64,000 nt of DNA. It comes from Trichlorobacter ammonificans. Lineage in GTDB: Bacteria > Desulfobacterota > Desulfuromonadia > Geobacterales > Pseudopelobacteraceae. The notes below the pieces were generated by a model. The model had not been told where the DNA came from. It made no database searches and worked only from the letters and a program-made list of their open reading frames with translations. The number at the start of each line of letters is the position of its first letter. The first letter of the stretch is position 1. The stretch covers positions 2,530,001-2,594,000 of the forward strand of contig NZ_OW150024.1 in the NCBI RefSeq assembly GCF_933509905.1, in the 5' to 3' direction. This document shows, piece by piece, positions 61,418-64,000 of the stretch. Both the position numbers and the translations under genes were made by a program.

Positions 61418-63526
61418 TCAGAACAGGCCGGGCTCGGCGGCCAGAAAGCCGGTGAGCCGCCGGTACAGCCGATGGAGCCGTTCAGCGTACCAGGCGACGT
61501 TGAAATCCGGATGGCGGGGGTCGTAGTCGGCCAGCAGCCGGCACTGCTCATGCACCCTGATATGGCTGCCGCTGCCGGTGACGTAGTAGCTGACCCGGTC
61601 GCCGGCATGGAACGGCGCCTCGCTCCGTAATGCCAGCTCGCCCACGGCGCTGTGGTGCCGTTTTCCCTCCCGCACCTCGCGACGATACTGCTCCGACGAA
61701 AGGGGCAGCGTCTCGGTCCGGGCCAGCTGTTCCACCGGCACCTGCCGGGTCGAGAGCTGCTGCAGCCGCTCCTCGTACAGCGCGGCAACCCGTCCGGCGC
61801 CGTCCTCCAGCAGCAGGCGCAGGGCATCGTGCAGAAACTGCCGCAGGAATGGCTCCAGCCCTCCGGAGGTGAGACTGCTCCCCTTTATCACCAGGGTACC
61901 GTCGTAGCCCAGCAGGGCATAATTGCCCGGCTTGTAGCGGACCATGGCCCGGTAGCGGCTGTCGCAGGAAAGGGTCATTTCCCCCGGCAGCAGTTCCGTC
62001 AGGCGACGCAGCAGGTGGGACACCTCCTGGGTGCCGTCATGTCCCGGCGGCGGAATGAAATAGATGCCGTCCCGGTCAAGCTCCAGCGGCTCCGCCCCCT
62101 GCTCCCGCAGCCAGGTCAGCAGATCGCCGGTCAGCACCCGGCCCAGACGCTCGGTTTCGGCGGCTGTCTGCTGATCGGCAAACAGGAGGTGTGACGAAGC
62201 CAGCAGGCCATAAAACCCCCGCGCCAGACTGCCCAGCACTACCCGGCGGCTGTCCGCCGCGGCAAACCCGTCCCCGGCCCCGAGGGTCTCCGCTTCGAGG
62301 CGCGCCTCCCGCTTCAGGCGGGTCAGCCGATGCAGCAGCGACTGAAACATAGCCAGGTCGTCACTGCGCGGCGCAAGACGATAGGCCAGCAGGATAGCGG
62401 GCAGCAGAGCCCGCAACTCGCAGTGCACCACCGGACCATGGGGGCCGGGCCGCAGTTGCGGCGTCCAACCGCGCAGGCCCGTGCCGTGCTGGTGAGAATG
62501 GGGATGTGGCGGCAACGGCGGCATGCTGTGCCGGTGATGGAGATACGCCCTGACCAGCAGGGCGGACGCCACGTCGGCACGGCTGCGGTGCTGGCAGACC
62601 TGGGGCGGATAGGGAACCATGCCAGACAGCTGCAGAAACGCCGGCGCCAGTACGCGATACTCGCTACGGAGAACCCCAAGCTGCTGCCGCAGCCCCTCCT
62701 CATCCTTGCCCCTGTCGCGACTGAGCCCGCCGGGCCGGGGACGGTCGGCCAAGCGGAGCAGATGGCGCAGATCGACAACCGAGCGTCCGAAGATCCGGCA
62801 CCATCCTGCCGCTCTCCCGCTCTCCTGCCTGGACGGGGAGAACTCCTTCACGCGGGGGCTGCTGCCATCCCGCCCCCAGGCAAGCCTCACTCCGGCGTTC
62901 CGGGCACGCCTGAGCAATGCCGGCAACTGCTGCGCCAGACCATACCCCACCAGCAGATCGGGATCATCACGACGCAGAATGCGGGACAACTCCTCAAACA
63001 TGGCCCGCTCCGACATCCGGTCGGATGCGAGCAGCAGATCCCCCTGACGACGGTCACTGATCGCCAGACGGAACACAGCCCCGTCGCTGCTGTGGGTTAC
63101 TTCGCTGGCCAGAAAGGTCACGACAACCTGCTCCTGCGTCAAGCCACGAAAAAAGGTGACGCCGCTGGACAGCAGAAACTGCTGCTCCCGCTCGGGGAAG
63201 AACAGGGGGGGCGGTCCCGTCGTGCTGCGATGCAAATGAGCATAGGCGAGGCAGCAGTCATGCCAAGTGTCGAAAGTGAGCAGATAGCGGTACTCCCCCT
63301 CCCCTGTCAGCATTTTGATTACGCAGGAAAGTGGCAGTTCCCGAAGGACGGGAGGTGTTGCCGTCAGCAGGAAAGGGTGAAAAGGAACCTCTTGGGTTGT
63401 CAGACCGTCTTCGGTGCGCAGGAAGAGCCGGAAACCATGTCCGAGCGGCTCCACCGCCACAACCCCGCGGAACGGGGCATGACCGAAGAGTGACGGTTCA
63501 GTATTCGTGGCGGCATCCGGTTTCAT
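61418..63526 (-). CDS. divergent, probably inactivated family B DNA polymerase
   Basis: A 702-residue protein alignable by eye with family B DNA polymerases but with eroded active sites. Exonuclease motif I (DIET) reads FLASEV near 138, motif II (NxxxFD) reads VGYGLAQQL near 190, so proofreading residues are lost. Motif A (DxxSLYPS) is CELRALLPAIL with Glu at about 370 in place of Asp. Motif B retains only FYG (ARGFYGLLAS near 438), lacking Lys and Asn-Ser. Motif C keeps two Asp (LDRDGIYF, about 484 and 486). Archaea have inactivated B-family polymerases (PolB2), an analogy only. A single gene, with no RNA or repair partner adjacent. Confidence 0.72.
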   Translation of the reverse strand: MKPDAATNTEPSLFGHAPFRGVVAVEPLGHGFRLFLRTEDGLTTQEVPFHPFLLTATPPVLRELPLSCVIKMLTGEGEYRYLLTFDTWHDCCLAYAHLHRSTTGPPPLFFPEREQQFLLSSGVTFFRGLTQEQVVVTFLASEVTHSSDGAVFRLAISDRRQGDLLLASDRMSERAMFEELSRILRRDDPDLLVGYGLAQQLPALLRRARNAGVRLAWGRDGSSPRVKEFSPSRQESGRAAGWCRIFGRSVVDLRHLLRLADRPRPGGLSRDRGKDEEGLRQQLGVLRSEYRVLAPAFLQLSGMVPYPPQVCQHRSRADVASALLVRAYLHHRHSMPPLPPHPHSHQHGTGLRGWTPQLRPGPHGPVVHCELRALLPAILLAYRLAPRSDDLAMFQSLLHRLTRLKREARLEAETLGAGDGFAAADSRRVVLGSLARGFYGLLASSHLLFADQQTAAETERLGRVLTGDLLTWLREQGAEPLELDRDGIYFIPPPGHDGTQEVSHLLRRLTELLPGEMTLSCDSRYRAMVRYKPGNYALLGYDGTLVIKGSSLTSGGLEPFLRQFLHDALRLLLEDGAGRVAALYEERLQQLSTRQVPVEQLARTETLPLSSEQYRREVREGKRHHSAVGELALRSEAPFHAGDRVSYYVTGSGSHIRVHEQCRLLADYDPRHPDFNVAWYAERLHRLYRRLTGFLAAEPGLF

Positions 63527-63573
63527 GGTGCAGCAGACTATATCATGGCTCTGCTCTCATTTCAGCGCCACAA

Positions 63574-63607
63574 AAAGCAGCGTCGCCTGTTCAGGCGACG
63601 CTGCTTT
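63574..63607 (-). terminator. intrinsic terminator of the peroxiredoxin gene
   Basis: Perfect 14-bp stem AAAGCAGCGTCGCC (63607-63594 on minus) / GGCGACGCTGCTTT (63587-63574) with a 6-base loop and a following TTTTTG. Confidence 0.88.
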
Positions 63608-63632: not shown

Positions 63633-64000
63633 TTACTTGGCGTGCTTCGCGAGGTAGGAAGCAACACCTTCAGCAGTGGGTTTCATCGCGTCCTCCCCCT
63701 GCTTCCAGTTGGCCGGGCAGACTTCGCCATGGGTGTCGGTGAACTGCAGGGCGTCCAGCATGCGCAGGGCTTCGTCAACACTGCGGCCCAGGGGCAGGTC
63801 GTTGATCACGCAGTGGCGGACCACTCCTTTGGGGTCAATCAGGAAGAGACCGCGCAGGGCGACACTGGCAGGATGCTCGATGCCGTAGGAACGGATGATC
63901 TCCTTGTTCAGGTCGGCCACCATCGGGTACTGGACGTTGCCGATGCCGCCGTTGTCGACCGGGGTGTTCTTCCACGCCAGATGAGTAAATTTCGAATCGA
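63633..64000 (-). CDS. 2-Cys peroxiredoxin, N-terminus cut by window edge
   Basis: Thiol peroxidase that reduces hydrogen peroxide and alkyl hydroperoxides. The last 122 residues are visible: DSKFTHLAWKNTP at the edge, NVQYPMVADLNKEIIRSYG, LRGLFLIDPKGVVRHCVIND, RSVDEALRMLDALQF, then GEVCPANWKQGEDAM with the resolving Cys, as in AhpC/Prx1 enzymes. The peroxidatic-Cys part lies outside the window. The C-terminus ends shortly after (SYLAKHAK). A strong terminator follows 26 bases later. Identity is firm; the start is not visible. Confidence 0.95.
   Translation of the reverse strand, partial: DSKFTHLAWKNTPVDNGGIGNVQYPMVADLNKEIIRSYGIEHPASVALRGLFLIDPKGVVRHCVINDLPLGRSVDEALRMLDALQFTDTHGEVCPANWKQGEDAMKPTAEGVASYLAKHAK

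Follow-up and report, generated by a model that had tools for sequence, protein, structure and literature searches.

A B-family DNA polymerase of group G3 ancestry, maintained by purifying selection after the loss of most of its catalytic motifs in one clade of Trichlorobacter

The archaeal B-family polymerase PolB2 (Dpo2), initially called inactivated, has been shown to be an active polymerase (PMC8764526). Bacterial members, which make up group G2, are already known. PolB2 has a broken Exo I, no Exo III and an altered motif C in which the second, metal-binding Asp is nevertheless conserved; it is active and is predicted to work with iRadA and PPB2. The poxvirus protein F12 descends from the same polymerase family, has been inactivated and is retained for a different function, proposed to be virion morphogenesis (PMC4304020). 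The bacterial group G3, or Epsilon-N-like clade (PMC7544198, PMC12926913), has been described with conserved exonuclease and polymerase active sites (PMC12926913), and Salinibacter and Nostoc phages have been named as carriers (PMC7544198). The C-terminal half of eukaryotic Pol epsilon is a B-family exonuclease-polymerase module that was inactivated and kept for a structural role. ImuB, a dead bacterial polymerase of the Y family, is linked to the clamp and works with ImuA and DnaE2.

The gene described here (hereafter referred to as polB) is carried by a 64,000-nucleotide stretch of Trichlorobacter ammonificans DNA, the whole of which is referred to as the window. The positions of its features are listed in Table 1. 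The match of the predicted protein to the Pfam B-family polymerase model was weak (E 7e-4, under the Pfam cut-off), as was the NCBIfam match, but its B-family identity is certain, because of its relatives. Homologs were found in 18 of 38 related genomes, and there was no second B-family polymerase match elsewhere in the genome from which the window was taken. A scan of named genomes with the single window protein as the query gave no match; with the alignment as the query, T. thiogenes and Trichlorobacter/Geobacter MAGs were recovered. The AlphaFold2 (AF2) model of the window protein, based on a 32-sequence alignment, had a pLDDT of 84.7 and matched archaeal PolBs over the whole chain in Foldseek (probability 1.00, TM up to 0.75). 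The model of the most eroded copy, that of T. thiogenes, had a pLDDT of 83.3 and also matched archaeal PolBs (probability 1.00, TM up to 0.78). The B-family fold (an exonuclease-like domain plus palm, fingers and thumb) is therefore predicted to be kept over the entire chain, even in the T. thiogenes copy, a prediction that is partly a homology effect, as the input alignments contained active relatives.

Table 1. Positions in the window of polB, its motifs and its upstream neighbourhood
Feature	Coordinates	Strand	Basis
Inactivated G3-type B-family DNA polymerase (putative pseudo-polymerase), 702 aa; ATG at 63526, stop at 61418	61418..63526	-	ORF, Pfam/NCBIfam, AF2
EPGLF tail, beta-clamp-motif-like	61421..61435	-	Same position as the terminal QLGLF of E. 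coli Pol II
C-terminal palm and thumb, residues 551-695; best preserved part along with the N-terminal domain	61442..61876	-	Retention of invariant positions
Motif C, residues 483-490, LDRDGIYF; neither Asp lost	62057..62080	-	Alignment
Motif B (fingers), residues 431-441, LGSLARGFYGL	62204..62236	-	Alignment
Motif A, residues 369-377, CELRALLPA vs CDVASLYPS	62396..62422	-	Alignment
Exo III (YNLDD) deletion site, about residues 265-282	62681..62734	-	Alignment, spacing
Former Exo II, residues 193-201, VGYGLAQQL vs GHNxFRFD; Asn and Asp lost	62924..62950	-	Alignment
Former Exo I, residues 138-144, FLASEVT vs LDIET	63095..63115	-	Alignment with 63 relatives
Predicted -10 box TATAGT, 10 nt before the ATG	63537..63542	-	TATAxx common to seven inactive copies
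Hairpin and T-run, terminator of the upstream peroxiredoxin gene, between it and polB	63572..63604	-	Sequence reading
Peroxiredoxin gene, 3' part (198 aa in full, runs past the window); conserved upstream neighbour of polB	63633..64000	-	

By ancestry, the window polB belongs to group G3 (Pol-epsilon-N-like). The Glu before motif C that marks this group was present in all 63 intact orthologs and is kept in the window copy (Glu482), whereas five of the seven inactive copies lack it. Exo II read GHN, not GWN, in the 61 intact relatives covering the motif, thereby ruling out the Pol II-like group G1, which has GWN with a conserved Trp. The closest phage matches of the intact orthologs were Salinibacter phages, followed by Nostoc and Anabaena phages. 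The Trichlorobacter copies differ from G3 as described in having lost both active sites, and no earlier report of an inactivated G3 clade was found in the main texts of the openly accessible papers searched. Intact G3-type PolB genes were also observed on Deinococcus megaplasmids (L165-L168), where their annotation goes no further than "3'-5' exonuclease" or "ribonuclease H-like domain-containing protein". In a Thermoplasmata archaeon MAG (L125), the N-terminal and exonuclease part was matched weakly by tblastn (E 2e-6, 24% identity), and a simple motif scan of that locus revealed no intact B-family frame.

Alignment with the intact relatives bore out the reading of the motifs in the initial annotation, according to which the exonuclease motifs were lost, motif A had Glu for Asp, motif B lacked Lys and Asn-Ser, and motif C had both Asp residues. 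In the window copy, LDIET of Exo I has become LASEV, with loss of the catalytic Asp and retention of Glu142, GHNxFRFD of Exo II has become GYGLAQ.Q, and YNLDD of Exo III has been deleted together with adjacent residues; the spacing between Exo I and motif A is 230, versus 267 in 56 intact copies. Measured against an active polymerase, this copy has ELRALLPA for DVASLYPS in motif A, with the metal-binding Asp replaced by Glu370, has lost the Lys (G432) and Asn-Ser (R436-G437) of KxxxNSxYG in motif B, of which Tyr439 and Gly440 survive, and keeps the second Asp of motif C, where DTD has become D484-R-D486.

Seventy family members were compared, seven from Trichlorobacter and 63 from elsewhere in the family and the order. 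The 63 relatives outside the genus, a few of them from incomplete assemblies, were intact at every motif covered by their sequence (Exo I DIE, Exo II NxxxFD, Exo III YNxDD, motif A DVxSLYPS, motif B KxxxNSxYG and motif C DTD), bar isolated substitutions, including one in Exo III of G055. All seven Trichlorobacter copies, by contrast, lacked the Exo I Asp, Exo II, Exo III (deleted) and the Lys and Asn-Ser of motif B. This division between seven broken genus copies and 63 others that are intact where covered, bar those substitutions, is not due to chance. A profile of the seven gave a bimodal score distribution across the order (1013-1122 bits for the seven, ≤679 for all others). Judged by these motifs, the genus clade would qualify neither as an active proofreading exonuclease nor as an active B-family polymerase.

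The inactive copies are maintained by purifying selection, although they evolve much faster than the neighbouring genes. All seven are full length and have no internal stops. Omega was 0.175 for the inactive copies, compared with 0.094 for their active relatives, and omega = 1 was rejected for the inactive clade (lnL -14204.5 vs -14736.5, a difference of 532 log units; 2 delta lnL about 1064). The four domain blocks all gave values between 0.12 and 0.22. Pairs and the tree of inactive copies yielded an omega of 0.15-0.23, with synonymous sites saturated in most pairs; the closest pair (G014/G007), which is unsaturated, gave 0.21 at a dS of 0.82-0.84. Inactive polB copies are 35-40% identical where the neighbouring cls gene is 64-67% identical; the corresponding values for active polB are 71-77% and 63-68%. 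The initial annotation had suggested that a long open frame with eroded catalysis was under selection, and this view holds, as omega is far below one and the breakage is shared and inherited; a dN/dS near one, which would have indicated a pseudogene, was contradicted. Its further suggestion, that the protein has been retained to bind DNA or for a structural purpose, is plausible.

Constraint on the inactive clade has shifted relative to the active enzymes. Positions invariant in active copies were retained at 65-78% in the first 100 residues, the thumb and the C-terminal region, and at only 18-28% around the exonuclease loops and fingers. The last two residues, Leu701 and Phe702, were invariant in all 32 aligned sequences, active and inactive. 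They end a conserved EPxLF tail (pLDDT <50 in the AF2 model), which aligns with QLGLF of Pol II, lies at the end of the chain where a beta-clamp-binding motif would be expected in a G3 enzyme, and is only a loose fit to the canonical QLxLF clamp motif. We favour, with moderate confidence, the reading that the inactive protein is a non-catalytic pseudo-polymerase kept by selection, probably as a clamp-tethered DNA-binding factor. Its N-terminal domain and thumb would still grip DNA, and the C-terminal LF tail would tether it to the beta clamp. Sitting on the clamp or at the junction of primer and template, it would neither lengthen nor degrade the primer, and would protect the occupied site or control which polymerase can reach it. 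We infer the absence of catalysis, the retained grip on DNA, the tethering to the clamp and the protection or gating of the primer-template. Several findings count against a DNA- or clamp-bound factor: none of the seven copies keeps the second Lys of a KKRY-like DNA-contact motif (G/N534 in window numbering), the EPxLF tail fits the clamp motif loosely, no operon partner is common to all polB copies, and sister species do without the gene. The fast evolution of the inactive copies is also compatible with a role that places little demand on sequence.

The protein may instead have taken on, by exaptation, a function that has nothing to do with primer-template DNA. It might be a protein scaffold, a role put forward for F12, which resembles it in being an inactivated, retained B-family polymerase, but is viral and not orthologous. 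This precedent (PMC4304020), the rapid divergence, the loss of the KKRY-like Lys and the absence of any DNA-repair gene among the conserved neighbours of polB are consistent with such a change, as are nine positions at which the inactive clade is fixed for a state seldom or never seen among the active relatives sampled. However, preservation is best in the thumb, in the N-terminal domain and in the tail that resembles a clamp motif, which makes a DNA- and clamp-related role simpler than a scaffold role, and we consider exaptation away from DNA rather unlikely.

The seven copies differ at the two metal-binding motifs of the polymerase domain. Motif A has Glu in three copies, Asp in three and Ser in one, and motif C reads DRD in two copies, those of the window and G012; four others have DxQ, and the last has NSQ. 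At the second Asp of this motif, which is the metal ligand (PMC8764526), five of the seven therefore have Gln, and the usual active site cannot form in these five because this ligand is lost. The spacing between motifs A and C, which is 114 in all 63 intact enzymes, is 96-104 in the same five copies, with the fingers/palm region 10-18 residues shorter. These data bear on whether the protein still polymerises, as a specialised, proofreading-free enzyme like PolB2/Dpo2 with Glu370 and Asp486 as ligands. The window copy and G012, with an acidic residue in motif A, both Asp residues in motif C and the usual spacing, would fit such an enzyme, and PolB2 itself was wrongly predicted to be dead (PMC8764526). 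The loss of the motif B Lys and Asn-Ser from every copy, the Gln, Ser and Asn-Ser-Gln replacements and the truncations argue against it, and the clade has fixed no acidic residue close to the active site that might compensate; residual polymerase activity seems quite improbable.

The initial annotation had also proposed a bacterial counterpart of the inactivated archaeal PolB2, and this did not stand. The Trichlorobacter copies resemble PolB2/G2 in being B-family proteins with a broken Exo I, no Exo III and an altered motif C that were initially called inactivated. However, their ancestry lies in G3, they have lost more residues, motif B included, and the PolB2 pattern in motif C (second Asp kept, first lost) is reversed in four of the seven (D-x-Q), with both Asp residues kept in two and neither in one. 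None of the genes of the iRadA-PPB2-PolB2 operon was found in the stretches read around polB, which contained genes for a peroxiredoxin, a cardiolipin synthase-like protein, a Rieske protein and amt. Ancestry, operon and motif C pattern together rule out membership of PolB2.

The gene order amt-Rieske-cls-prx-polB, in which cls is cardiolipin synthase-like, is common to active and inactive genomes, and all seven inactive copies occupy the same locus, beside the peroxiredoxin gene (prx). Four sister-clade Trichlorobacter species have a clean deletion, with prx followed directly by the gene found beyond polB in several active genomes and no polB remnant at the locus. The species tree based on cls and prx separated the carriers of the inactive gene (support 97) from the four-species deletion clade (98); four more genomes of the genus, without polB and without a close peroxiredoxin, were left out of this tree. 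In the polB tree, the seven inactive copies formed one clade (support 100), and the branching order of the carriers was the same in both trees where taxa were shared. A single inactivation in the ancestor of one Trichlorobacter clade, followed by vertical inheritance, is well supported and accounts for these observations. In the unconstrained polB tree, the inactive clade nevertheless branched next to the active Geobacterales as a whole and outside its family, as expected if an old paralog or transferred copy, inactivated before the genus arose, had replaced the ordinary polymerase. However, placement inside the family was not rejected (AU test, p = 0.37), trees of this kind are biased by long branches, locus and gene neighbourhood are shared with the active genomes, and no genome checked had both an intact and an inactive copy; such a replacement is very doubtful.

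Other gene losses were observed at this locus. G016 (L131), from another genus of the same family, has an apparently independent clean loss of polB between the peroxiredoxin gene and the next gene, and polB is also absent from the peroxiredoxin locus of G022. Peroxiredoxin paralogs (39% identity) of G003, G006, G008 and G011 (L133, L134, L136 and L137) have one in-frame TGA in otherwise open frames of 239-301 aa and are probable selenocysteine peroxiredoxins.

Each of the seven inactive polB copies (window 63527-63560; L002-L007) has a TATACT, TATAGT or TATACA box 6-10 nt ahead of its ATG, and in five of them this box is preceded, at 16 nt, by an [A/G]TGACA hexamer; the mRNA is likely to have a short leader or to be leaderless. 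No convincing LexA box (GGTTN2CN4GN3ACC) was found within 250 bp upstream of the inactive copies, and LexA control was rejected; the single one-mismatch match was in an active relative and overlapped the start codon. The polB gene is absent from the main text of a T. lovleyi transcriptome paper. A slowly decaying pseudogene without function, with which the clean losses in the four sister-clade species and the fast evolution of the retained copies might agree, is highly improbable; over the greater part of the clade's history it is refuted by the omega values and the seven open, full-length frames, and the invariant LF tail and the TATAxx box before every ATG also stand against it.

For the pseudo-polymerase reading, a functional parallel is ImuB, a dead bacterial polymerase with a clamp-linked, non-catalytic role. 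ImuB differs in family and in its partners: each Trichlorobacter carrier showed a single match to the C-family alpha subunit (a short fragment in G014, the assembly of which is 73% complete), and a partnership with DnaE2, as in the ImuA-ImuB-DnaE2 mutasome, was rejected on the basis of this single gene. No link to the number of Y-family polymerases was apparent, with one or two IMS matches in carriers and none to two in non-carriers. The inactivated half of Pol epsilon is fused to an active polymerase, whereas the Trichlorobacter protein is stand-alone and of separate, recent origin. We tentatively suggest that it might be a PolB counterpart to ImuB, a free-standing accessory on the clamp and primer-template that would govern polymerase access, having arisen in a single genus, with the gene deleted in the sister clade.

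Earlier prokaryotic cases of conserved dead B-family polymerases rested on PolB2, later found to be active, and the Trichlorobacter case is stronger because essential ligands have been lost, not just altered. Active orthologs, inactive copies and clean deletions at one locus in close relatives constitute a natural experiment on a polymerase without catalysis, and cultured species (T. thiogenes and the related T. lovleyi) make its role testable. These findings suggest that, in one branch of the soil bacterium Trichlorobacter, an enzyme that copied and proofread DNA now has a non-copying job on DNA.
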